A program made the translations under genes and the position numbers. A stretch of 64,000 nt of DNA from Rhizobiales bacterium IMCC20636 (GTDB taxonomy: Bacteria; Pseudomonadota; Alphaproteobacteria; Rhizobiales; GCA-2746425): positions 527,001-591,000 of the forward strand of contig CP018226.1 in NCBI GenBank assembly GCA_016865015.1, given 5' to 3'. Below, piece by piece: positions 44,131 to 60,575 of this stretch. The first letter of the stretch is position 1, and the number at the start of each line of letters is the position of its first letter. The notes under the pieces were generated by a model that saw nothing but the letters and a program-made list of their open reading frames with translations, was not told where the DNA came from and searched no databases.

Positions 44131-44157
44131 ATTCAAGCAGATCACTTCAAACAGTTT

Positions 44158-44201: not shown

Positions 44202-44667
44202 TCCGCTGAGTATTTGGGCGGATTTCAATTTAGGCATTCTGCAGGTTCTTTCGGGGCCGTGCCAGAACGACGCATACGACGCGCCTGAGGATACAATCCG
44301 CGAGACGCGCACTTCAATTGTTGTGGCCATCACCAGCTCCGAGCTTTCGCGGTTTGAGGCAGCTTCCGGAGCAAACCCAATCCACTTCCATCGCGACATT
44401 CCAGATGCGGATGGACATGTTTCCCACTCCCTGACATCCCCTATCTGGCGCCCGACAATGTGCTGGACATTCTGGATCTGACCGGAAAGCTCATGGGTTG
44501 TGCGGACAAGCGCGCGCAGAAGCTGATTTGGTCCTGAAGTAACACGGTTTTATTATCGCGATCAGATTTGATCGTCTGCAGATACCCCGCCACACTGATC
44601 TTGTTGAACGCGACCTACATGAGTTCTGGCGCTGCGTAGCCTGTAGACTCCTCCCCCTCAATTTGAC
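44202..44667. other. Gene-poor stretch, possibly decayed coding sequence
   Basis: No gene with a start, ribosome site and recognisable product is seen. One forward frame stays open without a start codon from about 44197 to the TGA at 44478, and a second frame nearby reads IPYLAPDNVLDILDLTGKLMG before a TGA at about 44534. The composition resembles coding sequence, so this may be a frameshifted relic. Short minus-strand frames (44199-44399, 44491-44730) are judged chance. Confidence 0.35.
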
Positions 44668-44704
44668 TGAACGCAAGATGAACAACCGGTTCCAAAATGG
44701 TTCA
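44668..44704. promoter_or_regulatory. Curlin-box 2 (double 11-bp-phased dyad)
   Basis: TGAAC at 44668 and 44679, GGTTC at 44688 and 44699, then A. All four half-sites are symmetric about base 44686. It contains GAAC-N7-GAAC and GTTC-N7-GTTC, each matching the alphaproteobacterial LexA box. The end is 88 bp from the ATG of curlin gene 2. Confidence 0.75.
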
Positions 44705-44791
44705 GGCGGGGTGGGGCATGGTGTCTTCATCGAAACGCAATGACGCGGCTTCGAACCAGATCAAAAACAAATTTATCGAGGAAACAGACCC

Positions 44792-45223
44792 ATGAAACGC
44801 CTTACAATCATCGCAACAGCAGTCGCACTCGTCACCAGCTTCTCCGCCCCGGTTATGGCCAATGGAGTGAGCATTGAACAATTTGGCTTCGGCAATGCCG
44901 CCGGTGGTGGCCAGGTTGGCACAGGAAACCTGCTCGGTGTCTTCCAGGACGGTGCCTTCAACAACTCCATCACCGAACAGTTCGGCCATGGCAATGTGGC
45001 TGCAACCGGACAGAGCGGTTTCAACAACGCATCTGACACAGTGCAGAACGGCAATGGCAACCAGGCCGGTGTTGGCCAGTTTGGCAATAACCACACTTCA
45101 GTCCTGACACAGGACGGCAATGGCAACATCGCAGCCGGTGTTCAGGTTGGTAACAACTGCAGCGCAAATGTCGGCCAGTCCGGCAGTGGCAATGTCGCAG
45201 CCTTCGTTCAGGCTTGCCCATAA
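44792..45223 (+). CDS. Curlin-repeat protein 2
   Basis: 143 residues: signal peptide 1-23 (cleavage after VMA) and ten Q-x-G-x-x-N strand units plus a terminal partial unit, all with an 11-residue period. It differs from copy 3 (53271) at only two positions, S124/N and S130/T. Cys123 replaces the Asn of unit 9, and Cys142 replaces the Gly of unit 11. GAGGAAAC precedes the ATG. A hairpin and then a CsgH-like gene follow 87 nt downstream. It is probably a major fibre subunit, secreted through an outer-membrane curli pore encoded elsewhere. Confidence 0.87.
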   Translation: MKRLTIIATAVALVTSFSAPVMANGVSIEQFGFGNAAGGGQVGTGNLLGVFQDGAFNNSITEQFGHGNVAATGQSGFNNASDTVQNGNGNQAGVGQFGNNHTSVLTQDGNGNIAAGVQVGNNCSANVGQSGSGNVAAFVQACP

Positions 45224-45249
45224 GCTTCGATCAAATACTTCAACAGTTT

Positions 45250-45284
45250 GATGTGCCGGGCTGTCAGAGGACACCCCGGACATC
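45250..45284 (+). terminator. Intercistronic hairpin between curlin 2 and CsgH-like 1
   Basis: GATGTGCCGGG-CTGTC pairs with GACA-CCCCGGACATC around an AGAG loop. It is followed by ACTCTTTTC rather than a full T-run, so probably a partial terminator or mRNA-stability element making curlin more abundant than the CsgH-like protein. The same structure recurs at 57623-57657. Confidence 0.6.
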
Positions 45285-45310
45285 ACTCTTTTCAGGAAAA
45301 GGAAACCGAC

Positions 45311-45709
45311 ATGACCCGTTTTACCAAACATCTGACGACTGGCTCTGCCGCACTTCTGGCGCTTAGCCTGACCGGTGTTGCATTGGCTGGAACAAGCACA
45401 GCCAAGCCATCTGATGATCCGATCAGTTGTGAAATCAAAGCCACGCAAAACCGTGGCATGATCACACTGGAAACCCTGATCCACAGCGATACGTCTATTC
45501 AGGGCCAGTACCGCTTCAAGGTCAAAAGCGCCGGACGGTCCGGTAACACAAATATTTCACAGGGCAGCAATTTCCGTGCAGCCGCCGGAGAGTCTCTGCA
45601 ACTGGGCCGCATGATGCTGTCATCCGGCGCTATCTATGATGCCAGTCTCGACGTCACCGTTAGCGGTGTGCATTTCAACTGCGCTGAACGCATCGGTGGC
45701 GCCACCTGA
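45311..45709 (+). CDS. CsgH-like curli-associated protein 1
   Basis: 132 residues: signal peptide about 1-26 (cleavage after ALA), then a ~100-residue beta-sandwich. The profile ISCEIKATQNRGMITLETL, GQYRFKVKSAG, SGNTNISQGSNFRAAAGES, then YDASLDVTVSG, resembles CsgH, the alphaproteobacterial counterpart of CsgC, a periplasmic inhibitor of premature curlin aggregation. Cys40 and Cys124 may form a disulfide. ATG 45311 follows AGGAAAAGGAAA; the in-frame ATG at 45248 lies inside the intercistronic hairpin region and is rejected. It differs from the 57684 copy at two residues (P33/S and H122/S). Confidence 0.8.
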   Translation: MTRFTKHLTTGSAALLALSLTGVALAGTSTAKPSDDPISCEIKATQNRGMITLETLIHSDTSIQGQYRFKVKSAGRSGNTNISQGSNFRAAAGESLQLGRMMLSSGAIYDASLDVTVSGVHFNCAERIGGAT

Positions 45710-45725
45710 CCATGAGCGGCATGAT

Positions 45726-45781
45726 CTTCGATGGCACCAGGGCGTAAACCAGTTCATTTGCGCCCTGGTGTTCCATCGAAG
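45726..45781. terminator. Long convergent inverted repeat after CsgH-like 1 and hmgA
   Basis: CTTCGATGG plus CACCAGGGCG (45726-45744) pairs with CGCCCTGGTG and CCATCGAAG (45761-45781): a 19-bp stem broken only by a 2-nt bulge, with a 16-nt loop. The right arm is the last coding bases of hmgA. It probably terminates both convergent genes. Confidence 0.7.
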
Positions 45782-47112
45782 TGTTTTTTCAGATCGGCCC
45801 AACAGTCGATGTAATCGTCCTGCAAGGGAGCCTCTTTGGCTGCGAAGGCCGTCAGATGCTGCGGGAAGCGGGTCTCGAACATGAACGACATCGTGTTGTC
45901 GAGTTTTTCAGCCTGCAGCTTGGCATTTGATGCTCCCTCAAAGGCATCCTTGTCGGGTCCATGGGGCAGCATCATGTTGTGAAGGCTGATCCCACCGGGT
46001 GCGAAGCCTTCAGGCTTGGCATCGTAAACACCGTAAATATTACCCATCAGCTCGGACATGATGTTCTTGTGATACCAGGGGGGGCGGAAGGTATCTTCCG
46101 CAACCAGCCAGCGCTCTCGGAACAGTACAAAATCGATATTCGCAGTTCCCGGCTGACCGGAGGGTGCGGTCAGGACGGTGAAGATTGACGGATCGGGATG
46201 ATCAAACAGGATTGCACCGACCGGACAATAGGTGCGTAAATCATATTTGACCGGTGCGTAATTGCCATGCCAGGCGACAATGTCGAGCGGGCTTTGTGCG
46301 ATCGGTGTGGTATGAAACTGGCCGCACCATTTGATGGTTACGGTGGACGGAACTTCGCGATCTTCAAAGGCTGCAACCGGGGCCTTGAAGTCGCGACGGT
46401 TTGCCATGCAATTGGCACCGATCGGGCCTCTGCCCGGCAATTCGAATTTCTGTCCGTAATTCTCGCAGACAAAGCCGCGTGCGGGACCCTCGATCAACTC
46501 CACCCGATGCACCAGACCGCGCGGAATGATGGCGATTTCCTGTGGCTCAAGGTCAATGATGCCAAGCTCGGTGTGAAACCGGATGCGGCCTTGCTGAGGA
46601 ACGACCAGCATTTCGCTGTCAGCGGAGTAAAAATATTCATCCACCATGCTTTCGGTGACGAGATAGACATGGGCTGCCATGCCGACTTGTGTGTTGACAT
46701 CACCAGCTGTGGTCATGGTGCGCATGCCGGTGATCCAGTTGAGGTCCTGTGCGCCTGCATCAAACGGATTCCAGCGATACTGGCCCAGCGAGATCACATC
46801 GGGATCAACATGGGGGGCTGACTTCCAGTAAGGAACGTCGATCTTTGTATAGCGATTGGAATGTTTGACCGATGGACGGATGCGGTAGCACCAGGTGCGT
46901 TCATTTTGATGGCTGGGCGCGGTGAAAGCGGTGCCTGACAGTTGCTCCGCATAAAGGCCATATTCGCATTTTTGCGGCGAGTTCATGCCCTGTGGCAAGG
47001 CACCGGGCAGCGCCTCGGTCTCATAATCATTGCCAAACCCCGACATGTAGCCGGGGTGTGTTCCATTGGTGGCAAGTTGTTGAATGATGGGGCGATTGTC
47101 TGCTGTATTCAT
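45754..47112 (-). CDS. hmgA: Homogentisate 1,2-dioxygenase
   Basis: 452 residues of the Fe(II) ring-cleavage enzyme of tyrosine and phenylalanine degradation; the product is maleylacetoacetate. The N-terminal [19 protein letters not shown] and the central [28 protein letters not shown] segments are diagnostic. The metal site lies in the C-terminal cupin ([20 protein letters not shown], with His and Glu ligands, and a further His at [11 protein letters not shown]). The start at 47112 follows GGAG; an ATG 4 codons upstream is possible. It stands alone, without maiA or fahA, between curlin cassette B and the malonate locus. Confidence 0.95.
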
Positions 47113-47324
47113 CTCATTCTCCATTCAGTTGCCGGTTTAAAAGGTAACGCCTGACAAATCGGCCTTGTTTTGCCCGATCCAGCGTATGTCAGGATGACAT
47201 TGCACAGCGATCTGGAAGCAAAACAATTTGAGCTGTCCATTTTGTATGCGTGTTGTGCGCAGCGGACAAGTGGCTTCAACCCGTGACGCGCGGGCGCATG
47301 TCAGCAAGCTGCGCAAGCTTTGTG

Positions 47325-48839
47325 CTAGCTGGAGAACAGGTCGCCGAACTGGTCTCGCAGTGCTTTTTTCTGAACTTTGCCCATCGTGTTTCGGGGCAGT
47401 TCAGGCAGGATAATCAGCTCTTTGGGTTGCTTGAAGCGTGCCAGTGATGTGCCGATATTGGATTTGATGGCTGCAAGATCCGGTTTGCTATCACCTTTTG
47501 CAACGATGATTCCGACGACGGTTTCACCAAAGTCGGGGTGCGGCACTCCGATCACCGCGCTTTCCAGGACACCGTCTTCCTGGTCCAGCAGCAATTCAAT
47601 TTCCTTGGGGTAAATATTGAACCCGCCTGAAATGATGAGATCCTTGTTGCGGCCGACAATATGCAGGTATCCGTCTTCATCGAACTGCCCCAGATCACCG
47701 GTGATGAAAAACCCGTCGGCGCGCAATTCCTCTGCGGTCTTTTCAGGCATCTGCCAATAACCCTTGAACACATTTGGCCCGCGGACCTCGATCTCGCCGA
47801 TCTCGCCATTGGGCAGTGTTTCGCCTGTCTTGCTGTCGGTGATCTTGATCTCGACGCCGGGCAAAGGGAAGCCGACCGTTCCTGCGCGCCGTTCGCCGGA
47901 ATAGGGATTGGAGGTGTTCATGTTGGTTTCGGTCATGCCATAGCGTTCAAGGATCTTATGGCCGGTGCGTTGTTCAAACTCGACATGGGTTTCCGCCAGC
48001 AAAGGTGCACTTCCGGACACGAAAAGGCGCATGTGTTGCGTGAGTTCCCTGGTGAAGCGCGCATCGCCGAGAAGTCGCGTATAAAATGTCGGCACACCCA
48101 TCATGGTTGTCGCACGGGGCATCTGCTCAATCACCACATCCAGATCGAATTTCGGTAAAAAGATCATCTGACCGCCAGCCAGAAGGGTGATGTTTGATGC
48201 CACAAACAGCCCATGTGTGTGGAAAATCGGCAGAGCGTGCAGCAACACGTCCTGCGAAGTGAATTTCCATTCTGACACCAGGGTCTGCGCGTTGGACAGT
48301 AAATTTCCCTGTGTCAGCATCGCGCCCTTGGAGCGTCCGGTTGTGCCGGATGTGTAGAGAAACGCCGCCAGATCATCTTCTGTGCGTGGCACAGTTTCAA
48401 ACGTTTCCGGCAGTGCCTCGGCTTTTGCATGGAATGTGCCTGAGCCATCTTCATTCAGAGTTTTCAGAACGGCGTTACACGCATCTGCGACAGGTTTCAG
48501 TGCATCTGCCATGCGCTGGTCGCACAGCAGAATCCGTGCGCCGCTGTTTTCAACAAAATAGGTCACTTCATCGGCCGTGTAGGCGGTGTTCAGTGGCAGG
48601 AAAACAATCCCTGCCTGAACGCAAGCTGCGTAAACTGCCAGCGCTTGCGGCGATTTCTGGATCTGAACGGCTACCCGGTCGCCGGGCTCAAGCCCAAGCT
48701 GTGTCAGCAGATTGGCATATTGCGCCGCCATTGCGAGAAAGGTGGCATGGGTGATCGTCTGGCCATCCTGCAATTGCAGAAAGTCGGTTGCTCTGCCGTG
48801 ATGCTGTCCAAACAATGTGTCGTAGAGAGGATTGGCCAT
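47325..48839 (-). CDS. matB: Malonyl-CoA synthetase (AMP-forming acyl-CoA ligase)
   Basis: A 504-residue ANL-superfamily ligase of MatB length. The AMP-binding P-loop YTSGTTGRSKGAMLTQGN is near 160-177, the adenine segment RYGMTETNMNTSNPYSGERRAGTVG near 290-314, and the hinge/C-terminal domain (TGDLGQFDEDGYLHIVGRNKDLIISGG) and catalytic Lys (RNTMGKVQKKALR) near the end. GERRAGTVG is typical of malonyl-CoA synthetases. It makes malonyl-CoA from malonate, CoA and ATP. It lies 43 nt downstream of the TRAP genes on the same strand. Malonyl-CoA decarboxylase (matA) is not in the window. Confidence 0.88.
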   Translation of the reverse strand: MANPLYDTLFGQHHGRATDFLQLQDGQTITHATFLAMAAQYANLLTQLGLEPGDRVAVQIQKSPQALAVYAACVQAGIVFLPLNTAYTADEVTYFVENSGARILLCDQRMADALKPVADACNAVLKTLNEDGSGTFHAKAEALPETFETVPRTEDDLAAFLYTSGTTGRSKGAMLTQGNLLSNAQTLVSEWKFTSQDVLLHALPIFHTHGLFVASNITLLAGGQMIFLPKFDLDVVIEQMPRATTMMGVPTFYTRLLGDARFTRELTQHMRLFVSGSAPLLAETHVEFEQRTGHKILERYGMTETNMNTSNPYSGERRAGTVGFPLPGVEIKITDSKTGETLPNGEIGEIEVRGPNVFKGYWQMPEKTAEELRADGFFITGDLGQFDEDGYLHIVGRNKDLIISGGFNIYPKEIELLLDQEDGVLESAVIGVPHPDFGETVVGIIVAKGDSKPDLAAIKSNIGTSLARFKQPKELIILPELPRNTMGKVQKKALRDQFGDLFSS

Positions 48840-48882
48840 CATCAGGCTCCTGCTTTGAATTCATTCGTTGTGGTCATTGGTG

Positions 48883-50199
48883 TCACAGCGCGGCTCCCAT
48901 GACCGCATCCGGCAACCATGTTGCCAGTCCGGGAAAGACACACAACAGGATGATAGCCAGAACCATACAGGCCACAAAGGGCAGGGATCCGGTCAGGATG
49001 GTCTTCAACGAGATGTCAGGCGCAATGCCGTTGATGACGTAGAGGTTGAGACCGACCGGTGGAGAGATCAGGCCGATTTCCATATTGATGGTCAGGATAA
49101 CTGCGAACCAGATTGGGTCAAATCCAGCTGTGGTGATGATCGGCAACAGGATCGGGGCGGCCATCAGGATGACCGCAACGGGGGGCAGAAAGAAGCCGGC
49201 GATCAGGAGGAAGACATTCACCGCCGCCATCAGGATCCATGGATTGACGTCCAGTGTGCCGATCCATGCGGCGATGGACTGGGTGATGAACAGGCTCGAC
49301 AGCATGTAGGAAAACACACCGGCTGCCGCGATGATAAACAGGATCATCACGCTTTCCCTAGTGCTGTCCCGCAGCACAACCCAAAGGTCTTTGGGGTTCC
49401 ATAATTTATAGATCACCATGGCGATGACAAGGCAGAGCAAGGCACCGACAGCGGCTGTTTCCGACGGTGTGGCGACACCGCCATACATGGCATAGAGAAC
49501 GCCAAGGATAATCAGAAGGAAGGGCACCACGCGCGGAAGAATTTCGAATTTCTGCTTCCAGGTGTAACTCCCACTGGCCAACAATGCCTTGTCGCCAGAT
49601 TTCCAGGTTGAATAGAGCGACCAGGTCATGAACAGCACGACCAGCAACAGGCCTGGAATGACACCGGCCAGGAAGAGGCGGCCAATCGAAGTTTCGGTGG
49701 CGATTCCATAGACGATCATGGTGACAGAGGGCGGGATGAGAATGCCCAATGTGCCACCAGCGGCGATCGAGCCAGCTGCGACGCCATCGGGATAGCCGCG
49801 CTTGCGCATTTCCGGGATGCCCATCTTGCCAATGGCGGCACAGGTTGCGGGGCTGGAGCCGGACATGGCCGCGAACAATGCGCAGGCACCAAGGTTGGAA
49901 ATGACCAGGCCGCCGGGTACCCGTGTCAGCCAGCGCTCAAGGGCTTCATACAGGTCTGCCCCTGCCCGGGTCGACGCGATGGACGAGCCCATGATGATGA
50001 ACATCGGAATTGACAGAAGCGCGAAATTATCAAGCTTTCCAAAAAAGATTTCAGGCAGCAGTTCCAAGGACCGCATCCCGTCAAACATCATCAGGAAGCC
50101 GGTTGAAACGATGAGCAGGCCGAGCGCAACCGAGACGCCGGAAAAGAGTACAAAAATGGTGGAGATGGCGACAATTGCGCCCAATGCAAGCGGATCCAT
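48883..50199 (-). CDS. TRAP transporter large permease (DctM type), probable malonate
   Basis: 438 residues with about twelve membrane helices. It contains the DctM segments GSSPATCAAIGKMGIPEMRKRGY near 115 and AAGGTLGILIPPSVTMIVYG near 150, and GLISPPVGLNLYVINGIA near 380. It forms the Na+-dependent channel with DctQ, whose stop it overlaps by one base. The association with matB and a MatR-type operator indicates malonate, as for rhizobial MatPQM; the assignment is by context. Confidence 0.9.
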   Translation of the reverse strand: MDPLALGAIVAISTIFVLFSGVSVALGLLIVSTGFLMMFDGMRSLELLPEIFFGKLDNFALLSIPMFIIMGSSIASTRAGADLYEALERWLTRVPGGLVISNLGACALFAAMSGSSPATCAAIGKMGIPEMRKRGYPDGVAAGSIAAGGTLGILIPPSVTMIVYGIATETSIGRLFLAGVIPGLLLVVLFMTWSLYSTWKSGDKALLASGSYTWKQKFEILPRVVPFLLIILGVLYAMYGGVATPSETAAVGALLCLVIAMVIYKLWNPKDLWVVLRDSTRESVMILFIIAAAGVFSYMLSSLFITQSIAAWIGTLDVNPWILMAAVNVFLLIAGFFLPPVAVILMAAPILLPIITTAGFDPIWFAVILTINMEIGLISPPVGLNLYVINGIAPDISLKTILTGSLPFVACMVLAIILLCVFPGLATWLPDAVMGAAL

Positions 50200-50747
50200 C
50201 AGGCGTCATCCAATCCGAAAGGGGTGTCAATCTTGAGGAGAACTGCTGCAAGATCAGCAATCAGTTGCAAGAGGAACAGCGCAAATCCAATTGGCAGCGC
50301 AGCGTAGGGTATCCACAGGCGGACGCCCCAAATGGTGTCTGATTTCCAGTTCTTTTCAAATGCCAGATGCCAGAATTCAAAACCATACCAAAGCATCAGT
50401 GCCACCATCAGGATGGACAGCGAGAGTGTGAACAGAGCCATGACAAAGCGTGCGCGTTTGCCAAGTGACAGCGGAATGAGATCAACATTGACATGTCCAC
50501 GCAATCGCTGGACGTAAGGCAGGCCAATCAATGTCGATGCGATGGCAAGATAGATGACGGCTTCGGTTTGCCATATGGTTGATCCATTCAGCACGAACCG
50601 AATGAAGATCATCTGGCAGGTAATTCCGACTGCCGCGACGATCATGGCGGCTGAACACCATCCTGCAATCGTAGAGAGAGCAGCCACAATCCGCAGGAAA
50701 GGGTTATCACCCGTACGCGATGCGACGGCTGTGCTTTGACCAGCCAT
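50199..50747 (-). CDS. TRAP transporter small permease (DctQ type), probable malonate
   Basis: 182 residues with four membrane helices (about 30-55, 65-85, 105-125, 145-165). The DctQ signature RLRGHVNVDLIPLSLGKR is near 82-99. It pairs with the large permease and anchors the binding protein. It follows the binding-protein gene after 70 nt. Confidence 0.9.
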   Translation of the reverse strand: MAGQSTAVASRTGDNPFLRIVAALSTIAGWCSAAMIVAAVGITCQMIFIRFVLNGSTIWQTEAVIYLAIASTLIGLPYVQRLRGHVNVDLIPLSLGKRARFVMALFTLSLSILMVALMLWYGFEFWHLAFEKNWKSDTIWGVRLWIPYAALPIGFALFLLQLIADLAAVLLKIDTPFGLDDA

Positions 50748-50817
50748 GGCTTGTATCCTTCAAAATTTGGGCACTTGCAGTTGGAAGGCCGCCCGGAAGC
50801 GGCCTTCCAGATGAGGA

Positions 50818-51804
50818 TTACTCGACAGCCAAAGCCATATCAAGAAGGGCCTGACCATCCGGGACTTCCTCGACGAAAGCCTTATAGGAGGTTTCCTGTG
50901 CCAGGGCGCGCCATGCGGCAAAATCTTCGGCCGACATCTCGGCGATCTCGACGCCAGCATCGCGGAAGACCTGCTCTGATTCAGCATCTTCCTTCTTGGC
51001 TTCTGCCAGATAATAAGCCTCTGCCTTTGCAGATGCGGCTGTCAAAGCAGCCTGCTGTTCGGCGTTCAGTCCGTCAAAGGTCGACTTGTTCATCAATAGC
51101 GGCTGATACATGAACCACAGGGCGACATCACCAGCTGGTGTGTAGCAGCTTACCTGCTCGTAGATGCGATAGGAGACAAATGACGATGATGATGTGTTTG
51201 CGGCGTTTAGAACGCCGGTCTGCATGGCATTATAGATCTCAGATGATGCCATTGATGCGATCGATGCACCGGCTCCGGCCAACATCTGCTCGAATGCCTT
51301 TCCAGCAGCGCGGGTCTGCAAGCCCTTCACGTCTTCAGGTGCTGTGATGCATTTGTCTTTGCCGGCAAATCCGCCAGCCAGATAGCCGTGGACCAGGACC
51401 ATGACATCGTCTTCAGCCATTTTTTCTTCCAGGGCTTCCATGAAAGGCGATGCGCTGAGACGGGCTGCGTGATCGTGGTTTTTAACCAGGCCCGGCATCA
51501 AGGTGAGATTGTATGCTGGCTGTTGTCCACCAGCATAGCTTAGTGGCAGCACAGTCATATCAAGCTGGCCACGGCTCAGCGGACGATATTGTTCGCGCGG
51601 CTTGAACAGAGATTTCGATCCGAAGATCTGAATCTCAAGATCCACATCGGCAGCAGCCACTTCATCGGCAACTATCTGAGCTACTTTATGGCGAACGTCC
51701 TTGTTTGACCATTGATGTGACAGACGCAGCGTTTCCGCGCTTGCAGCGCTCCCAAAGCCAATACTGGCCACAATGGCGACCGTTGTCAGAAATTTCGTTT
51801 TCAT
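50818..51804 (-). CDS. TRAP transporter substrate-binding protein (DctP type), probable malonate
   Basis: 328 residues with a signal peptide (1-22, cleavage after ASA). The mature start ETLRLSHQWSNKDVRHKV and the segment EIQIFGSKSLFKPREQYRPLSRGQ near 62-85 with the ligand-binding Arg are DctP hallmarks. ATG 51804 follows GGAGG; the frame extended to 51870 crosses into the operator region. It is the first gene of the leftward matPQM-B-like operon. It has two Cys (CITAPED and SCYTPAG). Confidence 0.9.
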   Translation of the reverse strand: MKTKFLTTVAIVASIGFGSAASAETLRLSHQWSNKDVRHKVAQIVADEVAAADVDLEIQIFGSKSLFKPREQYRPLSRGQLDMTVLPLSYAGGQQPAYNLTLMPGLVKNHDHAARLSASPFMEALEEKMAEDDVMVLVHGYLAGGFAGKDKCITAPEDVKGLQTRAAGKAFEQMLAGAGASIASMASSEIYNAMQTGVLNAANTSSSSFVSYRIYEQVSCYTPAGDVALWFMYQPLLMNKSTFDGLNAEQQAALTAASAKAEAYYLAEAKKEDAESEQVFRDAGVEIAEMSAEDFAAWRALAQETSYKAFVEEVPDGQALLDMALAVE

Positions 51805-51885
51805 AGTTTCCTCCATAAGTGTGACCAGATTTACTCTGGCTCTGGCCAAACCTCCTTCCATAATTTGCATGCTACGTCAATATTG

Positions 51886-51895
51886 TTGTATACAA
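51886..51895. promoter_or_regulatory. MatR-type operator TTGTATACAA
   Basis: A perfect 10-bp palindrome in the 138-nt divergent region between the dctP-like and GntR genes. It matches the inverted TTGTA/TACAA core described for MatR of rhizobial malonate operons. A position near the promoters of both genes supports repression relieved by malonate. Confidence 0.75.
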
Positions 51896-51942
51896 TTTGT
51901 AGATTATTGCATTCTGCGGCGGCGTTGTGCTATGCATCCTGC

Positions 51943-52590
51943 ATGGAATTGAGGCGAGCAAACAGAATTGCCGAGACATTGGAACAGCTGGTGTTTTCGG
52001 GTGAATACCGGAACGGTGAGCGTTTGGATGAACATAAGCTTGCCGAATATTTCCGTGTCTCGCGCACTCCCATACGCGAAGCACTTCAAGTGCTCGTCTC
52101 TTCAGGCATGGCGGAGCAGATTCCGCGGCGCGGGGTGTTTGTCCGACAACCGGGCCCTGTAGAGCTTATGGAAATGTTCGAGACCATGGCTGAACTGGAA
52201 GCCGCCTGCGGCCGGTTTGCAGCGACACGGATTTCCGAAGCCGGTTTGCAGCAATTGTTTGATGCCAACCAGAATTGCCAGCAAGCCATCGAAGAGCAGG
52301 ACCACGACCGCTACTACGCTGAAAATGAAGTGTTTCATCATGCCATCTACAAAGGCTCGGCAAACAGCTATCTGGAAAAGCAGGCCTTGCAGCTTCAAAA
52401 CCGTTTGAAACCCTATCGCAAGATACAGCTTCGGTTCCGCGGGCGCCTGGCTCAGTCGATGGCGGAGCACGAGTCGATTGTTGCCGCGCTGCAAGATGGC
52501 GACGCAGAAAAAGCATCTGACGCCTTACGCCGCCATGTGGCCGTTCAGGGCGAGAAATTTCATCAACTGATAGCCAGTCTCAACACTTAG
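51943..52590 (+). CDS. matR: GntR-family regulator, MatR-like
   Basis: 215 residues: winged helix-turn-helix (about 5-70: GEYRNGERLDEHKLAEYF, SRTPIREALQVLVSSGMAEQIPRRGVF) and FCD domain (AACGRFAATRI, NEVFHHAIYKGS, AEHESIVAAL). The start at 51943 was chosen because the extension to 51865 would include the operator; no good ribosome site precedes it, so it may be weakly translated. It is divergent from the malonate TRAP-matB operon with a MatR-type palindrome between. The symbol is given on family plus operator plus neighbours. Confidence 0.8.
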   Translation: MELRRANRIAETLEQLVFSGEYRNGERLDEHKLAEYFRVSRTPIREALQVLVSSGMAEQIPRRGVFVRQPGPVELMEMFETMAELEAACGRFAATRISEAGLQQLFDANQNCQQAIEEQDHDRYYAENEVFHHAIYKGSANSYLEKQALQLQNRLKPYRKIQLRFRGRLAQSMAEHESIVAALQDGDAEKASDALRRHVAVQGEKFHQLIASLNT

Positions 52591-52626
52591 CATTTCGTTT
52601 TCTCATGGCGGTCGGAGAGGGCCTCC

Positions 52627-53106
52627 TCAAAGCCATCTGCGGACACGCTTGCAGTAAGCGGCGTAATTTGCGGGGAACTGCGCCGACAGATATTGCTCCT
52701 CCGGTCTGATCATCCAAAGTTGCAGGATAATGGCCGAGGCAATAGCCGATGCGGACAGCCACATAGAATTGAACACAATGCCACTTGCGAAAACAGCCAC
52801 GATGGCACCCAGATAATTCGGGTTGCGTGAAATCCGATAGGCTCCATTTGTTACCAGTGCGGTTGTTGGCAGCCCGGGAAGACTGGGTTGCGCTGCAGCC
52901 GCGAGCGAACGTTTCGCCCAGACGATCATACCAACGCCCGCACCCGCCAGTGCTATGCCAAAAGCGATCCGAAGGGGTTCGGGCAGAAACGGGACGTGGC
53001 TCGGCATGAGCCATTCGGCAACCAGTCCAAGCAAAGCAAGTGGGAACAGAACCACATCACCGATCTTCCAGGCATGGTGATGCGCAGCAGCTGCCTGCTT
53101 GTCCAT
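52627..53106 (-). CDS. Isoprenylcysteine carboxyl methyltransferase (ICMT)-family membrane protein
   Basis: 159 residues with about four membrane helices and the ICMT/phospholipid-methyltransferase motifs: TTALVTNGAYRISRNPNYLG near 80-99, containing the SAM-site RNPNYLG, and RPEEQYLSAQF near 132-142. The family methylates small lipids or modified cysteines; the substrate in bacteria is mostly unknown. It is convergent with the matR-like gene, and its start lies 41 nt from curlin-box 3, pointing away. Confidence 0.85.
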   Translation of the reverse strand: MDKQAAAAHHHAWKIGDVVLFPLALLGLVAEWLMPSHVPFLPEPLRIAFGIALAGAGVGMIVWAKRSLAAAAQPSLPGLPTTALVTNGAYRISRNPNYLGAIVAVFASGIVFNSMWLSASAIASAIILQLWMIRPEEQYLSAQFPANYAAYCKRVRRWL

Positions 53107-53146
53107 GCGCGTCTCCTTTGGATCAATTTTAGTCTGTCCAATTCCC

Positions 53147-53183
53147 TGAACGCAAGATGAACAGCTGGTTCCAAAATGGTTCA
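53147..53183. promoter_or_regulatory. Curlin-box 3 (double 11-bp-phased dyad)
   Basis: TGAAC at 53147 and 53158, GGTTC at 53167 and 53178, then A. It has both GAAC-N7-GAAC and GTTC-N7-GTTC and ends 88 bp before the curlin 3 ATG, exactly as in copies 2 and 4. Confidence 0.75.
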
Positions 53184-53270
53184 GGCTGCGTGGGGCAAGG
53201 TGTCTTCATCGAAACGCACTGACGCGGTTTCGCACCAGATCAAAAACAAATTTATTGAGGAAACAGACCC

Positions 53271-53702
53271 ATGAAACGCCTTACAATCATCGCAACAGCA
53301 GTCGCACTCGTCACCAGCTTCTCCGCCCCGGTTATGGCCAACGGAGTAAGCATCGAACAATTTGGCTTTGGCAATGCCGCCGGTGGTGGCCAAGTTGGCA
53401 CAGGAAACCTGCTCGGTGTCTTTCAGGACGGTGCCTTCAACAACTCCATCACCGAACAGTTCGGCCATGGCAATGTGGCTGCGACCGGCCAGAGCGGTTT
53501 CAACAACGCATCTGACACAGTGCAGAACGGCAATGGCAACCAGGCCGGTGTTGGCCAATTCGGCAACAACCACACGTCAGTCCTGACACAGGACGGCAAT
53601 GGCAACATCGCAGCCGGTGTTCAGGTTGGTAACAACTGCAACGCAAATGTCGGCCAGACCGGCAGTGGCAATGTCGCAGCCTTCGTTCAGGCCTGCCCAT
53701 AA
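53271..53702 (+). CDS. Curlin-repeat protein 3
   Basis: 143 residues with the same signal peptide (1-23) and 11-residue Q-x-G-x-x-N ladder as copy 2, from which it differs at two residues. Cys123 and Cys142 are kept. GAGGAAAC precedes the ATG. It is followed 129 nt later by a CsgH-like gene, across a different spacer with its own hairpin. Its near-identity to a gene 8.5 kb away implies recent duplication or gene conversion. Probable secreted amyloid subunit. Confidence 0.87.
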   Translation: MKRLTIIATAVALVTSFSAPVMANGVSIEQFGFGNAAGGGQVGTGNLLGVFQDGAFNNSITEQFGHGNVAATGQSGFNNASDTVQNGNGNQAGVGQFGNNHTSVLTQDGNGNIAAGVQVGNNCNANVGQTGSGNVAAFVQACP

Positions 53703-53777
53703 GCTTCGATGGACCACGTCAAATACCCAAAAGGCATTCCCTTATGGCTATGTGGCCTCATTGAAACAGCCAAATGT

Positions 53778-53800
53778 GCCGAGGGATTTGTATCCCTGGC
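53778..53800 (+). terminator. Hairpin between curlin 3 and CsgH-like 2
   Basis: GCC-G-AGGGAT pairs with ATCCCT-GGC around a 4-nt loop, 31 nt before the CsgH-like ATG. It differs in sequence from the hairpins at 45250 and 57623 but sits in the same place, so it may serve the same attenuating role. Confidence 0.45.
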
Positions 53801-53831
53801 CATCCCGATTTTGGAAAGCGAGTAATATACA

Positions 53832-54230
53832 ATGACACGTTTTAGCAAACATATGGTCTCCGGCGCAGCCGCGCTTGTGGCGCTCAGCCTGACCGGTGTT
53901 GCGCTGGCCGGAACCAATACCAGCGGTTCATCTGATGATCCGATCAGTTGTGAAATCAAAGCCAGCGAAAACCGTGGCATGATCACACTGGAAACCCTGA
54001 TCCACAGCGATACGTCCATTCAGGGTCAGTACCGTTTCAAGGTCAAAAGCGCCGGGGCTTCCGGCAATACCAATCTGTCACAGGGCAGCAATTTTCGTGC
54101 AACGGCCGGAGAGCCACTTCAACTGGGCCGTATGATGCTGTCCTCCGGTGCGGTTTATGACGCCAGCCTCGACATCACCGTAAGTGGTGTGAGTTTCAGC
54201 TGCGCCGAACGCATTGGCGGTGCCACCTGA
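53832..54230 (+). CDS. CsgH-like curli-associated protein 2
   Basis: 132 residues: signal peptide about 1-26 and the same beta-sandwich pattern as the other two copies (ISCEIKASENRGMITLETL, GQYRFKVKSAGASGNTNLSQ, YDASLDITVSGVSFSC). It is the most diverged of the three, with changes in the signal peptide, in the segment TNTSGSSDDP and at several core positions. Cys40 and Cys124 are kept. Like the others it would act in the periplasm on curlin subunits; that role is taken from the CsgH family and from pairing with curlin genes. Confidence 0.8.
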   Translation: MTRFSKHMVSGAAALVALSLTGVALAGTNTSGSSDDPISCEIKASENRGMITLETLIHSDTSIQGQYRFKVKSAGASGNTNLSQGSNFRATAGEPLQLGRMMLSSGAVYDASLDITVSGVSFSCAERIGGAT

Positions 54231-54548
54231 TACCGGGAAATTCCACGACCTCCAAGTCTTCCCAGTTAAGGGCTCCTTTCAACGGGAGCCCTTCCTTTTT
54301 GACACATGTTTCGAACTATTCAGTACACACAGAGCATGCTGCGTTGGCAGTGATCAGAGATGTCGCATTTGGTGCCAATCCGTCGTTTTTATTTGAACGG
54401 CCAGACCTCGTCCAGTTGCCCTGGCGTGGCCGCCCCGCACCTCAGAATAAATCAATAAATTCGATAATAGATCATAGTATTTATCGTTATTCCAATAGTT
54501 CAAAAAATGTTAGTGCGTGCCGACAAATATGGAAAGCGGTTGAACAGG
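54231..54548. other. Intergenic stretch after cassette C
   Basis: It begins with the terminator of cassette C. The rest (about 54301-54548) shows no credible gene; the short frame at 54299-54559 has no recognisable product. The last ~100 bases are AT-rich (54440-54520) and probably contain the promoter of the lipoprotein gene. Confidence 0.5.
54268..54300 (+). terminator. Rho-independent terminator after CsgH-like 2
   Basis: AAGGGCTCC and GGAGCCCTT form a perfect 9-bp stem with an 8-nt loop, followed by CCTTTTT. Confidence 0.85.
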
Positions 54549-54848
54549 ATGGCAAATAGTTTGAGAATTATCCCTGTATTGGGTGTCTTGGTTGCTCTTG
54601 TGAGTGGGTGTGCAAAAGAACCTGGCCTAGGCGCGGCTATTTCTGCCCGCGGCGAAAAGGCGAGCAAAGTCGCTGTTGAATACATGATCGGCGAAAAACT
54701 TGTCGCATCCGGAGAAAAGAATGTTCGTGCAGGGCAGAAACTGGTCGAACAGGGCCAGACTCAAATCCGTGATGGGCAAGTGATGCAAGAAATGGCCCGA
54801 CGCTCATTTTGTGAAGATACCGCGAACAAAGATCCTGCCTGCCAATAA
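54549..54848 (+). CDS. Small lipoprotein of unknown function
   Basis: 99 residues with a lipoprotein signal: hydrophobic segment LGVLVALVSGC, with a VSGC lipobox whose Cys would be lipidated. The mature part is mostly helical and charged (ISARGEKASKVAVEYMIGEKL, then GEKNVRAGQKLVEQGQTQI) with possible coiled coil, and ends with two cysteines in a short tail. The ATG at 54549 is favoured; 54507 would add 14 polar residues before the signal. No family was recognised. It stands alone, 98 nt before the DUF992 gene. Confidence 0.65.
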   Translation: MANSLRIIPVLGVLVALVSGCAKEPGLGAAISARGEKASKVAVEYMIGEKLVASGEKNVRAGQKLVEQGQTQIRDGQVMQEMARRSFCEDTANKDPACQ

Positions 54849-54946
54849 TCAACATCAATGAACCAGCTGTGCCCCACAAGCGGAATTGGGCGAGTGAGGC
54901 TACACCTTGTAGCGGGCAAATTTGCCCAAACCGGAGAGAATGAAAC

Positions 54947-55429
54947 ATGAAAATTATTCAGATCGTAGCGGCTTCCATCTTTACTGCGTCAGCCTTGGTG
55001 CCAATGACAACACATGCTGCGCCAAGTGGCGACAGAATCGGTGTTCTCGAATGTACCGTTGACGGCGGATTTGGTCTGCTCGTCGGTTCAAGCAAGAAGG
55101 TGAACTGTACTTTTGCGCAATCAGGCGGCGGAGTTGACACCTATACAGGCACGATCAGCAAACTTGGTCTGGACATCGGCATTACCGGAAAATCATACCT
55201 GAAATGGGTTGTTTTCACGCCGACCGGTACTGAACTGCCGGACCATCCGCTTGCTGGTAAATATGCCGGGGTCTCGACGGGATTGTCGCTTGGCATTGGT
55301 CTGGGTGCAAATGCGCTTGTCGGCGGAAATGACAAGCAAATTGGCTTGCAGCCATTGAGTGTTGAAGGTCAGACAGGTCTGAATATTGCGCTTGCTGTCT
55401 CAACGCTCAGACTTGAGCCGTCAAACTGA
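54947..55429 (+). CDS. DUF992-family secreted protein
   Basis: 160 residues with a signal peptide (1-23, cleavage after THA). The mature start APSGDRIGVLECTVDGGFGLLVGSSKKVNCTF, with a Cys pair about 18 residues apart, is the DUF992 pattern; Gly-rich strands (GLSLGIGLGANALVGGND) follow. Periplasmic or surface protein of unknown role, common in Hyphomicrobiales. AGAATGAAAC precedes the ATG. The repeats resemble neither curlin nor CsgH. Confidence 0.8.
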   Translation: MKIIQIVAASIFTASALVPMTTHAAPSGDRIGVLECTVDGGFGLLVGSSKKVNCTFAQSGGGVDTYTGTISKLGLDIGITGKSYLKWVVFTPTGTELPDHPLAGKYAGVSTGLSLGIGLGANALVGGNDKQIGLQPLSVEGQTGLNIALAVSTLRLEPSN

Positions 55430-55555
55430 TTTCAACACGCACATGACGGGGGAATCGTCATGTCTTCTGCCGCACGCCAACTGCCAGGAAACATGGCAGT
55501 TGGCGTGGTGCCGATGCAAAGATGAAACGGCATCAGTGCTCATTGCATAAAAGAT

Positions 55556-55999
55556 ATGGGGTATAGCGAAATGGATAATTGCTTTGGATCCGACCTTGCG
55601 GAACTTCTGAAGCCGGAAAACGAGCAAGCTGTTATTTCATTACCTGCCTACAGGGATACAAGGCTGGACTACGTAGTCGGGGATGATTTCGAGAAAACGA
55701 TCATCTGGATTCAAAACGCGCATATCTATACATTTCACAATCAGGCCTCGATAAGCTTCGCATTTACTGCTTCAGGTGGTGATAGGCGGTTCACAGCACG
55801 TGTGTTGGATCGGCGGTCTGTCCAAGATGACGAAGACGGGCCTGTCTTCATGTACCGCGTCAAAATGCTGGTACAGATTGGAAATATCTCGAACAGACTT
55901 GACCTGCTTTTGTGTGAAACACCATTGGTGGATGCACCCGCTATAATGTGTCGTCAGGATTTTGCGCAATTCCCTGATTTTACTCAGGGGCGGGACTAA
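55556..55999 (+). CDS. Uncharacterised small cytoplasmic protein
   Basis: 147 residues with no signal peptide or membrane helix. It is beta-rich, with segments RLDYVVGDDFEKTIIWIQNAHIY, SISFAFTASGGDRRFTARVLDRR and PVFMYRVKMLVQIGNISNRL. No family was recognised. The start could be ATG 55556 or 55571; neither has a strong ribosome site. The end overlaps the convergent LysR gene by 20 nt. Confidence 0.5.
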   Translation: MGYSEMDNCFGSDLAELLKPENEQAVISLPAYRDTRLDYVVGDDFEKTIIWIQNAHIYTFHNQASISFAFTASGGDRRFTARVLDRRSVQDDEDGPVFMYRVKMLVQIGNISNRLDLLLCETPLVDAPAIMCRQDFAQFPDFTQGRD

Positions 56000-56942
56000 T
56001 AGGATCAGGTGCTTCGGTTCCCTCGATCAGATCGACAAGACGTGGCGCAATGTGCTGTTCCATGCCCGCCTGTTCGAGCATGATCATCTGATTGTCCTCG
56101 ACCCGTCCGGCTACGCGACGAAGAATGGCAAGCGCCTGTGCTATCAACTGGGTGTCTGATTCAGCATTCCAGACAGCATAAATCGGAAATGGAAAGACCG
56201 GCGCGTTCTGTACGAGGTGAAGCGCGCCTTCGCTCACTTCGGTTTCAATAAAGCGGGCGGGAAAATATGCAGCACGATTATGTTCAATCACATAACGCGC
56301 TGAGAGCGTGCCAAGCGCCAGCGTAACCTGAGAGGCGCGGAAATCCGGAAAATGCGTCTTATGTGCCTGAACGAATTCCGGGCCCCAGTCGATAAAGACA
56401 TAATCGCTGCCAAGGTCACTCGAACGGTTGGGCTGGGGAGAGGCCAGGACCAGCGAATCTTCCATGAGGACCTCGACATTCAGGCCGGGCCGTAATTGCG
56501 GCGTATACATCACAGCAATATCGACGAGGCCATCCAGCATCAAACGCAGCAGCCGATCCGGCATGCCCATTTCTGCACGCAGTGCAACGTCCGGCATCAT
56601 GCGCTCAAGCAGGCGCAGCCATCGCATCGCGAATTTTGGCCACAAGCTGTATTGGCTCCCAATGGATAAGGCTTTTGCAAACGTGTCAGGCACGCCCACC
56701 TGATATTTTGCTTCCTCCCAAACCTTCATCATCGAGCGCGCAAAGCGTTCAAACTGTTCGCCTGCCGGAGTCATCTTGGTTCCGGTCTTGGCGCGAATGA
56801 AGAGCGGCCTCCCAAGCTCAGCCTCAAGCCGCTTGACGCGCGCACTCACTGTGGATTGCGTTACATTCAACCTTTTGGCTGCATTGAAAAAACTGCCTGA
56901 CGTGGCGATTTCAAGAAAAGTGCGGGCAAGTACAATATCCAT
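55980..56942 (-). CDS. LysR-family transcriptional regulator
   Basis: 320 residues. The N-terminal helix-turn-helix occupies about 1-60 (ARTFLEIATSGSFFNAAKRL, VTQSTVSARVKRLEAELG), followed by the LysR substrate-binding domain (about 90-290). It does not sit divergent to an obvious target: to the right lie cassette D and 222 nt without genes. It could therefore regulate the curlin cassettes or distant genes; nothing in the sequence decides this. Confidence 0.9.
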   Translation of the reverse strand: MDIVLARTFLEIATSGSFFNAAKRLNVTQSTVSARVKRLEAELGRPLFIRAKTGTKMTPAGEQFERFARSMMKVWEEAKYQVGVPDTFAKALSIGSQYSLWPKFAMRWLRLLERMMPDVALRAEMGMPDRLLRLMLDGLVDIAVMYTPQLRPGLNVEVLMEDSLVLASPQPNRSSDLGSDYVFIDWGPEFVQAHKTHFPDFRASQVTLALGTLSARYVIEHNRAAYFPARFIETEVSEGALHLVQNAPVFPFPIYAVWNAESDTQLIAQALAILRRVAGRVEDNQMIMLEQAGMEQHIAPRLVDLIEGTEAPDPISPAPE

Positions 56943-57040
56943 TGAAGTAAGTTACCCGATTAAATTTCATTCGTAAGGCGAATTAGCAGAAATGGCGCTC
57001 ATGCCATTCATTTTTGCTGTTTCCGCACGCTCGAAACCCC

Positions 57041-57077
57041 TGAACGCAAAATGAACAGCCGGTTCCAAAATGGTTCA
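57041..57077. promoter_or_regulatory. Curlin-box 4 (double 11-bp-phased dyad)
   Basis: TGAAC at 57041 and 57052, GGTTC at 57061 and 57072, then A. Both LexA-like pairs are intact and the end is 88 bp before the ATG of curlin 4. Confidence 0.75.
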
Positions 57078-57164
57078 GGCGGCGCGGGGCATGGTGTCTT
57101 CATCGAAACGCAATGAAGCGGTTTCGAACCAGATCAAAAACAAATCTATCGAGGAAACAGACCC

Positions 57165-57596
57165 ATGAAACGCCTTACAATCATCGCAACAGCCCTCGCA
57201 CTCGTCACCAGCTTTTCCGCCCCGGTTATGGCGAATGGTATCAACATCGAACAATTTGGCTTCGGCAATGCTGCCGGTGGTGGCCAGGTTGGCGCAGGTA
57301 ATATGCTCGGTGTCTTTCAAAATGGTGCCTTCAACAACTCCATCACCGAACAGTTCGGCAATGGCAATGTAGCCGCAACCGGGCAGGAAGGCTTCAACAA
57401 CGCAGCTGACACCGTTCAGTTCGGCAATGGCAACCAGGCCGGTGTTGGCCAGTTTGGCAACAACCACACTTCTGTCCTGACACAGGACGGCAATGGCAAC
57501 ATCGCAGCCGGTGTTCAGGTTGGTAACAACTGCAACGCAAATGTCGGCCAGTCCGGCAGTGGCAATGTCGCAGCCTTCGTTCAGGCTTGCCCATAA
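57165..57596 (+). CDS. Curlin-repeat protein 4
   Basis: 143 residues with the shared signal peptide (1-23) and 11-residue Q-x-G-x-x-N ladder. Residues 24-87 follow copy 1 (NGINIEQ, GAGNM, FQNG, QEGFNNAADTVQFG), whereas residues 110-143 follow copies 2 and 3 (NCNANVGQSGSGN, VQACP). Unit 4 reads FGNGN where the other copies have FGHGN. Cys123 and Cys142 are present. GAGGAAAC precedes the ATG, and the CsgH-like gene is 87 nt downstream. Probable secreted fibre subunit. Confidence 0.87.
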   Translation: MKRLTIIATALALVTSFSAPVMANGINIEQFGFGNAAGGGQVGAGNMLGVFQNGAFNNSITEQFGNGNVAATGQEGFNNAADTVQFGNGNQAGVGQFGNNHTSVLTQDGNGNIAAGVQVGNNCNANVGQSGSGNVAAFVQACP

Positions 57597-57622
57597 GCTT
57601 CGATCAAATACTTCAACAGAGT

Positions 57623-57657
57623 GATGTGCCGGGCTGTCAGAGGACACCCCGGACATC
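57623..57657 (+). terminator. Intercistronic hairpin between curlin 4 and CsgH-like 3
   Basis: The same stem as at 45250-45284 (GATGTGCCGGG paired with CCCCGGACATC through CTGTC/GACA), followed by ACTCTTTTC. A likely partial terminator setting the curlin to CsgH ratio. Confidence 0.6.
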
Positions 57658-57683
57658 ACTCTTTTCAGGAAAAGGAAACTGAC

Positions 57684-58082
57684 ATGACCCGTTTTACCAA
57701 ACATCTGACGACCGGCTCTGCCGCACTTCTGGCGCTTAGCCTGACCGGCGTTGCATTGGCTGGAACAAGCACAGCCAAGTCATCTGATGATCCGATCAGT
57801 TGTGAAATCAAAGCCACGCAAAACCGTGGCATGATCACACTGGAAACCCTGATCCACAGCGATACGTCTATTCAGGGCCAGTACCGCTTCAAGGTCAAAA
57901 GCGCCGGACGGTCCGGTAACACAAATATTTCACAGGGCAGCAATTTTCGTGCAGCCGCCGGAGAGTCCCTTCAACTGGGCCGCATGATGCTGTCCTCCGG
58001 TGCTATCTATGATGCCAGTCTCGACGTTACCGTCAGCGGCGTGAGCTTCAACTGCGCCGAACGCATTGGCGGTGCTACCTGA
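57684..58082 (+). CDS. CsgH-like curli-associated protein 3
   Basis: 132 residues, two substitutions from the 45311 copy. Signal peptide about 1-26, then the CsgH-type beta-sandwich with Cys40 and Cys124 conserved. ATG 57684 follows AGGAAAAGGAAA; the frame extended to 57621 overlaps the intercistronic hairpin. It is cotranscribed with curlin 4 and ends before a terminator shared with cassette C. Expected role: keep curlin subunits soluble in the periplasm. Confidence 0.8.
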   Translation: MTRFTKHLTTGSAALLALSLTGVALAGTSTAKSSDDPISCEIKATQNRGMITLETLIHSDTSIQGQYRFKVKSAGRSGNTNISQGSNFRAAAGESLQLGRMMLSSGAIYDASLDVTVSGVSFNCAERIGGAT

Positions 58083-58414: not shown

Positions 58415-59332
58415 ATGAAACAGGTGTTTTTCGCTGCTGCAATTCTTCTCGCGGGAAGCGGGGGTGGTTTCGCTGCGGATTTCAATATGGCGTTTGGTGA
58501 TGCGGCTGCTGACACGCCTGAAGGTTTGTTGGCAGGTGGGCTTATCAGTGTTTATGGTGGGTACCTGGGCTATGAGAACGAACAGGTCGACATTGGTGAT
58601 GAGGAACAGGGGATCATAGGGGCCAGGGGGGCCTACGCGCTGCCAATCAATTCCAGAATCAGTGCTCAGTTCGACCTGATCGGTGAATTGAATGCAACCG
58701 GCTCAGATGACGATGGTGATCTCACCCGCGGGGATTACATGGGCGCCGTGCATCTCGACATGCGTGATCCTTCTGCATATCTGTTTGGTGCCTTTGCCGG
58801 GGCCGGTCAGTCGTTTGATGATGGTGACAATGATGATGATCCAATTGGATTCTGGTTTGTCGGAGTGGAAGGCCAGAAATATATCGGCAATGTGACTCTC
58901 GGCAGCCAAATCGGTTATGTGGTTTCCGATGAGAACAACAATGAGTCGATCAGTGATGCCTGGTTTGCTCGTGCGACGGCTGGCTACTATTTCACTGAAA
59001 ATACCAAGCTTTCCGGCGATTTTGCTTTCTTTACCGGTGAGCGCAGAAACGGAAACCCGAAAGGCACCATGGATGTGCTGAGTTGGGGCGCGCGCGTCGA
59101 CCACTTCTCTTCCGAGTTTCCGGTTGGTATGTTCCTTGCCTATAATGGCTTTGACTATGAGGGTGACAGAGCGTCTGACGAAAGTGACGCGCCTTTTGTT
59201 CATGAAGTACGTATCGGAGCGTCGTTGATGCTTGGAGCGAGTAGCCTCATGGAGAATGATCGTCGTGGTGCGGGCGCTGATCTTGCGCCGATCAACCGCT
59301 GGACTTCCACATCGGCTAACGAAATCGACTAG
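58415..59332 (+). CDS. Predicted outer-membrane beta-barrel protein
   Basis: 305 residues with a signal peptide (1-20, cleavage after FAA). The mature part alternates amphipathic strands and acidic loops (DDGDLTRGDYMGAVHLDMRD, DDGDNDDDPIGFWFVGVEG, YFTENTKLSGDFAFFTGE) in an outer-membrane barrel pattern. The C-terminus is polar and does not end in Phe, so the final strand is unclear. Start ATG 58415 has a poor ribosome site. It is a single gene closed by a strong terminator. A porin or surface barrel is likely; no similarity to the CsgG pore (a lipoprotein) is seen. Confidence 0.7.
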   Translation: MKQVFFAAAILLAGSGGGFAADFNMAFGDAAADTPEGLLAGGLISVYGGYLGYENEQVDIGDEEQGIIGARGAYALPINSRISAQFDLIGELNATGSDDDGDLTRGDYMGAVHLDMRDPSAYLFGAFAGAGQSFDDGDNDDDPIGFWFVGVEGQKYIGNVTLGSQIGYVVSDENNNESISDAWFARATAGYYFTENTKLSGDFAFFTGERRNGNPKGTMDVLSWGARVDHFSSEFPVGMFLAYNGFDYEGDRASDESDAPFVHEVRIGASLMLGASSLMENDRRGAGADLAPINRWTSTSANEID

Positions 59333-60038: not shown

Positions 60039-60075
60039 TGAACACAATATGAATGACCGGTTCCAAAATGGTTCA
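60039..60075. promoter_or_regulatory. Curlin-box 5 (double 11-bp-phased dyad)
   Basis: TGAAC at 60039, TGAAT at 60050, GGTTC at 60059 and GGTTCA at 60070. GTTC-N7-GTTC is intact; the left pair is GAAC-N7-GAAT. It ends 87 bp before the curlin 5 ATG, with much of the leader of copies 2-4 conserved. Confidence 0.7.
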
Positions 60076-60161: not shown

Positions 60162-60575
60162 ATGAAACGCGCAACCCTGAAAACCACAATCGCCGCCCTG
60201 ACAATCGCAACAGTTGCTGCCATGACAGCCACACCATCCATCGCTGGTGGTTCAATCTCCGTCTCTCTGACGCCGCAGGATGCGGAACAGGAAAAAGCCA
60301 TGCGTGCCGGCCTTATGATCTTCGGCATTGTCAATGGTATCAAGAATGGTGGACACATCGGCCAGAACGGAAATGGCAATACAGCCGGACTTGGACAGAA
60401 TGGCAGCGGAAACCTTGGTATCGTTCATCAGGAAGGCGATGGTCACAATGGCACTGTCCAGCAGAATGGCAACAACAACGCCCACGGATTGTTCCAGTTT
60501 GGTGAAAACACCGATGGTCATGTTGCTCAGAATGGCAATGGCGAAACAGGTGCGACATTCCAGTTTGGCTGGTAA
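60162..60575 (+). CDS. Divergent curlin-repeat protein 5 with N-terminal non-repeat domain
   Basis: 137 residues: signal peptide about 1-28 (cleavage after SIA), a non-repeat region (about 29-62) containing a helix-like stretch (PQDAEQEKAMRAGLMIFG), then seven Q-x-G units with an 11-residue period (Gln at 68, 79, 90, 101, 112, 123, 134), ending FQFGW. It lacks the two C-terminal Cys of the other copies. It shares the curlin-box and the GAGGAAAC leader, so it is coregulated. Its different start and end make it a candidate minor subunit or nucleator, like CsgB beside CsgA; that is inference. A strong terminator follows. Confidence 0.82.
   Translation: MKRATLKTTIAALTIATVAAMTATPSIAGGSISVSLTPQDAEQEKAMRAGLMIFGIVNGIKNGGHIGQNGNGNTAGLGQNGSGNLGIVHQEGDGHNGTVQQNGNNNAHGLFQFGENTDGHVAQNGNGETGATFQFGW

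Follow-up and report, generated by a model that had tools for sequence, protein, structure and literature searches.

The gene at 60162–60575 (+ strand) of the window, the 64,000-nucleotide stretch analysed here (positions 527001–591000 of a one-contig genome), encodes a secreted curlin that belongs, on sequence comparison, to a separate conserved orthologue group with a head of its own. As judged from the same comparisons, this minor curlin partners with a Cys-bearing major curlin and csgH and has its own copy of the curlin promoter box, and within the genus the majors alone have been multiplied. We read it as a dedicated minor curlin, one-ended and most likely an initiator, in a curli-like amyloid system of the Hyphomicrobiales that lacks CsgG and is associated with CsgH. 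We regard this reading as evenly poised. The initial annotation had proposed a nucleator-like minor subunit, which is still the best reading of the gene and is partly supported by its sequence. In its favour are the existence of a distinct, conserved minor-type curlin (a head-bearing group, with one copy against multiplied majors), the pairing with a major and csgH in 78 of the 80 best of 105 loci, and a CsgB-like degeneracy of the C-terminal units. Against it, CsgG and CsgF were not detected in the host genome, the CsgB family model is not selective for the minor, the absence of Cys is not diagnostic, and net charge does not separate minor from major.

The coding sequence translates into 137 amino acids followed by a stop. 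A mechanical open reading frame opens at 60111; the start at 60162 is supported by the leader shared with the other curlins, GAGGAAACAGACCC-ATG, and by the orthologues, in which the A-G-G junction at the inferred cleavage site is also kept. The gene is laid out as follows:

60162–60245, + strand: signal peptide, residues 1–28, with cleavage inferred at SIA-GG
60246–60353, + strand: head, residues 29–64, with a predicted strand at mature residues 3–8 and a predicted helix at mature residues 13–29
60354–60572, + strand: curlin repeat region, seven QxG units, ending in FQFGW

The Q-x-G motifs fall at residues 68, 79, 90, 101, 112, 123 and 134, giving seven units at an exact 11-residue spacing, of which six are full and the seventh is shortened by the stop. 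Shuffling the mature sequence 20,000 times gave runs of at most 3 at this spacing. The Pfam Curlin_rpt model (PF07012) matched the protein with 25.1 bits, above its gathering cut-off of 20.7. The seven units, the lack of any Cys and the aromatic C-terminus FQFGW that had been ascribed to this gene were all borne out by the translation. The non-repeat head was likewise present (GGSISVSL...NGG, residues 29–64); its length, previously put at 34 residues, becomes 36, the figure depending on where the repeat is counted from. A genome search upheld the assignment of curlin repeats to five genes, finding none elsewhere in the 4.79 Mb genome.

The other four curlins of the window, the majors, are accompanied by three csgH genes:

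43699–44130, + strand: major curlin 1, 143 aa, curlin repeats, with a Cys pair
44792–45223, + strand: major curlin 2, 143 aa, curlin repeats
45311–45709, + strand: csgH copy a, matching PF21112 and NF041112
53271–53702, + strand: major curlin 3, 143 aa, curlin repeats
53832–54230, + strand: csgH copy b, CsgH profile match
57165–57596, + strand: major curlin 4, 143 aa, curlin repeats
57684–58082, + strand: csgH copy c, CsgH profile match

csgH lies behind three of the four majors, and each of the three csgH genes adjoins a major. The major–csgH unit is repeated as near-identical copies within 43699–58082, with unrelated transport and catabolic genes in between; the stretch 54947–55429 between curlin units encodes a DUF992 protein (E 9e-47).

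A protein search of 199 genomes, taken as an even draw from the order, gave a match to the minor curlin in 30. Twenty genomes carried a full-length, head-bearing minor, one per genome in that search; nine others gave weak repeat matches only, and the last (G157, where CsgG is present) had a fragment at a contig end and was excluded from the 20. For named genomes, the loci analysed were the best 80 of 105, a selection biased towards close relatives; they span Roseibium, Mesorhizobium, Aquamicrobium, Chelativorans, Rhizobium, Agrobacterium, Devosia, Pelagibacterium and others, with Rhizobium lusitanum supplying two. At 78 of these best 80 loci, a major curlin, csgH and the minor follow one another in this order on one strand, and csgH is present at 79; the two exceptions to the order are a locus that reaches the contig edge (L098) and one where csgH was not detected (L102). 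Matches to the minor were also found in 41 plasmid records, 37 of them from Rhizobium.

Profile searches set the group apart. An HMM built from the head only recovered 101 of 101 minor ORFs (some of whose loci stem from the same genomes) and matched nothing else at E < 1 among 14,904 ORFs, and an HMM of the minor scored 146–209 bits for minors versus 23–84 bits for 138 other curlins. In three comparisons with genomes of the genus, in which the largest dS values are close to saturation, dN/dS was 0.02, 0.02 and 0.06 for the head, 0.00, 0.01 and 0.02 for the repeat region, and 0.26, 0.18 and 0.27 for the signal peptide. By this measure, the head is under purifying selection. Decay of a fifth curlin copy was ruled out by these ratios together with the fixed mature length, which is 107–110 residues in all 81 minors compared.

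Mature majors have a length of 120 residues in 80 of 83 sequences and open with a curlin unit directly behind the signal peptide. They carry Cys at mature residues 100 and 119 (82/83 and 81/83 sequences, respectively). This pair sits in the last units, where one Cys takes the place of a ladder Asn, and a disulphide-clamped amyloid end in the majors is possible. No Cys was found in 74 of the 81 mature minors and two were found in the other 7, so the absence of Cys is no fixed mark of the minor class. Minors with two Cys, both within the repeats, occur in Devosia and two Rhizobiaceae MAGs (L140, L141, L158, L177, L100 and L101). A nucleator-style excess of basic residues in the minor was considered and rejected: its net charge lies above that of its major in only 45 of 79 pairs.

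Within the minors of the best 80 of 105 loci, units 1, 2 and 4 retain the ladder Asn (N73 and N84 in 100%, N106 in 99%), and the equivalent residue is H95 in unit 3 (99%) and T117 in unit 5 (94%). Position 128 in unit 6 is mixed and the last Gln, Q134, is kept in 43%. The ladder Asn therefore fades toward the C-terminus, where the units are degenerate. Copy number also differs between the classes: five genomes of the genus have 4, 4, 3, 3 and 1 majors (two majors in G080 being interrupted by contig ends) and one minor each. A single minor is not universal, since Mesorhizobium sp. AR07 has four major–csgH–minor sets (L138, L139, L142 and L157).

AlphaFold2 modelling of the mature minor, from an alignment of 57 orthologues taken only from the window and the named loci, gave a best model with a mean pLDDT of 96.1 and a pTM of 0.88; across the five models mean pLDDT ran from 96.1 down to 76.8. 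The model has a strand at residues 3–8 and a helix at 13–29, followed by seven solenoid strands. The major was predicted to have 11 strands and no head (pLDDT 97.9). Residues 34–109 of the modelled minor superposed on E. coli CsgA as solved by cryo-EM (8enq_A) with a Z-score of 9.3 and an rmsd of 1.3 over 76 residues, leaving the head unmatched, and the modelled major gave a Z-score of 19.8 over 109. Foldseek also ranked 8enq_A first for the minor, as a weak match (E 0.15). With the whole mature minor as query, residues 1–33 were hardly covered in the Foldseek and VIA lists. The prediction is thus a seven-strand curlin solenoid resembling that of CsgA for the repeats, preceded at its N-terminal end by a head folded as strand plus helix. 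An amphipathic capping helix was rejected as a description of the head, the hydrophobic moment of its helix being reached by 38% of shuffles.

The position of the head in the chain leads us to infer that it lies over the solenoid's N-terminal edge. Because the head is predicted to be a folded N-terminal element, a one-ended subunit at a fibre end is the more specific hypothesis. With its N-terminal end blocked, the minor would stack on majors by its opposite end alone and so take up a terminal position in the fibre. Its most likely part there would be that of an initiator, which may start each fibre by templating the first major and, by way of the head, keep the fibre at the cell. A point against a one-ended subunit is that the C-terminal end of the minor is degenerate too, and neither end might be a good template.

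A one-ended solenoid would suit either end of a fibre equally. The minor could instead be a terminator or tip subunit, one that adds to the growing end and stops growth, setting fibre length or showing the head as an adhesin, and the C-terminal degeneracy would weaken templating as such a role would have it. However, the analogy with curli loci, whose sole known second curlin is, in the accessible text of PMC10192328, the nucleator, speaks against this, and nothing specific favours the tip. We consider a terminator unlikely.

It is also rather improbable that the minor is just another structural subunit, built in along the fibre together with the majors, its head being a surface decoration with no role at an end. 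The box, leader and strand of the minor are the same as those of the majors, its modelled repeat region superposes on CsgA and its net charge is not distinctive, all of which such a subunit would share. Nevertheless, the head is placed at the N-terminal edge of the stack, the mature length is fixed in 81 of 81 sequences, and the copy number of the minor does not track that of the majors in the genus.

The preferred reading of the minor as an initiator has to accommodate a genome in which the curli exporter was not found. CsgG (PF03783) gave no match in the host genome at E ≤ 0.001, in a search that did find it in four control genomes, and the best match to CsgF there (0.124) fell short of the cut-off. 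Among the 20 genomes with a full-length minor, 18 had no match to CsgG, the exceptions being G015 (2.0e-26, on another contig) and G098 (4.2e-4, at the cut-off). For CsgF, 19 of the 20 had no match, and the sole one, in G154, lies more than 2 Mb from the minor and near a 1306-residue curlin-like ORF. CsgF was found in six of six genomes picked for having CsgG beside other curlins. CsgH was detected in 20 of the 20 genomes with a full-length minor, versus 28 of the 199 overall. With CsgH always present and CsgG mostly undetected, the module is CsgH-associated and CsgG-less. As CsgG and CsgF went undetected, the minor cannot be anchored in the manner of CsgB.

Beyond the three module genes, no family was found at a fixed place around the module; the next families were of generic ABC and LysR types at scattered distances. 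In a system lacking CsgG and CsgF, and with no further gene in common around the module, part of their work could fall to a small third partner, but it is very unlikely that the minor is such a non-fibre factor of the periplasm or outer membrane, aiding export or solubility, because its seven units with intact Q are under the strong selection expected of a protein that stacks with curlins and the role of inhibitor is already filled by CsgH, the R. palustris protein being reported to inhibit CsgA fibrillation (PMC4838910). An ORF for a 305-aa secreted protein at 58415–59332, between the majors and the minor, has a weak match to an outer-membrane barrel (E 0.19). It was rejected as a candidate exporter: its relatives are absent from the other loci among the 118 scanned, with hits in the window alone. 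The 1306-residue curlin-like ORF (L097:965–4885) contains 47 repeat-motif hits, in a genome with a nearby CsgF match and no CsgG match.

In E. coli, the gene order is csgBAC, with csgB first, and CsgB works through CsgG and CsgF, which serve export and anchoring. As with CsgB of E. coli and Salmonella, the minor is a second curlin, distinct from the major of the same system and encoded beside it, and has curlin repeats, degenerate terminal repeats and a predicted CsgA-like solenoid. Unlike CsgB, it carries an N-terminal head predicted as strand and helix, sits after csgH behind its own box, and comes from a genome without detected CsgG or CsgF. The terminal repeats of CsgB are described as degenerate, which the authors tie to a lower propensity for assembly, and the C-terminal repeat R5 faces CsgF in the E. 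coli model (PMC10192328). The extra element of the minor is N-terminal, so its geometry would differ from that of CsgB. The CsgB equivalog model NF007506 scored the minor at 31.6 bits, below the curated cut-off of 165. A closer kinship of the minor to CsgB, as judged by family models, was rejected: the four majors also score higher with the CsgB than with the CsgA model, so that the CsgB model does not single out the minor. Given the missed cut-off and the absence of CsgG and CsgF, we do not file the minor as CsgB, although it may work like CsgB.

According to the accessible text of Dueholm et al. 2012, many Alphaproteobacteria have curlins and csgH, often without csgE, csgF and csgG (PMC3521004). 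The present locus resembles their csgA/B–csgH loci, with csgH adjoining the curlins. The same text holds CsgA and CsgB homologues to be distinguishable in the Gammaproteobacteria only and does not mention the shared promoter box, whereas the two classes here are cleanly split by head, HMM score and Cys pair. Sleutel et al. 2023 counted CsgG as missing in 1033 of 43,279 CsgA-bearing genomes, a small minority (PMC10192328). The present curlins resemble these CsgA orphans in lacking a detected CsgG, and the accessible text describes no head-bearing class among the orphans. In the curli literature covered, mostly outside the subscription journals and accessible in part, we came across neither a head-bearing class of curlins nor the box; a review leaves the role of the curlin clusters of Agrobacterium and Rhizobium etli unassigned (PMC4018554).

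The head offers a sequence criterion for telling minor from major curlins outside the Gammaproteobacteria, going beyond the accessible text of the 2012 survey (PMC3521004). With this criterion, one can test whether the nucleation of an amyloid by a second subunit is a general feature or one tied to CsgG and CsgF. We put forward, tentatively and with more doubt than confidence, that the curli-like amyloid of the Hyphomicrobiales is made independently of CsgG by a three-gene module that consists of a disulphide-bearing major, CsgH and an N-capped, one-ended starter, under one dedicated box-binding regulator. If this is right, where a fibre starts and in which direction it runs would be set by a built-in cap, with no need of CsgB, CsgF or CsgG. 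An amyloid subunit that is one-ended would also provide a simple means of addressing fibre polarity.

The curlin box is a 35-bp motif with four half-sites, GAAY-N7-GAAY-N5-GTTC-N7-GTTC, for which the window has these exact matches:

43589–43623, + strand: box of major curlin 1
44669–44703, + strand: box of major curlin 2
53148–53182, + strand: box of major curlin 3
57042–57076, + strand: box of major curlin 4
60040–60074, + strand: box of the minor curlin

As first annotated, box and leader are common to all five curlins. The box begins 122 nt upstream of 60162 and at −110 to −123 relative to the other four genes. The host genome contains five exact matches, at the five curlin promoters, and zero exact matches to the reversed pattern. 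The named loci, the best 80 of 105, were scanned with up to two mismatches and with R accepted where the GTTC half-sites begin. A box preceded the minor in 68 of 80, the major in 77 of 79 and both genes in 66; neither the reversed pattern nor dinucleotide shuffles yielded any (0/80 for the minor, 0/79 for the major). The recurrence of the box upstream of both classes indicates that the switch of the majors is also present, as a separate copy, at the minor. With the same box and leader as the majors, the minor promoter gives no hint of low expression.

One-mismatch sites occurred in at least 19 of 20 genomes scanned, and the reversed pattern gave none among the matches listed. Among the control loci, L090 and L092, which have csgH and no detected CsgG, carry two-mismatch sites; the other seven, six of them adjoining CsgG, had no box at up to two mismatches. 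The box was rejected as a lead to an exporter, as the one-mismatch sites precede assorted secreted proteins, none an evident exporter. Several of the extra near-match sites lie ahead of predicted secreted proteins (L203–L221).

The box points to a curli regulator in both plant-associated and marine members of the Hyphomicrobiales. In Rhizobium mesoamericanum STM3625, the strain of locus L170, ‘csgAB’ (locus tags BN77v1_p11016 to 11018) is reported to drop 2.6 to 3-fold with root exudate (PMC5789663). The three consecutive tags fit the three-gene module by count, if they are assumed to correspond to L170.
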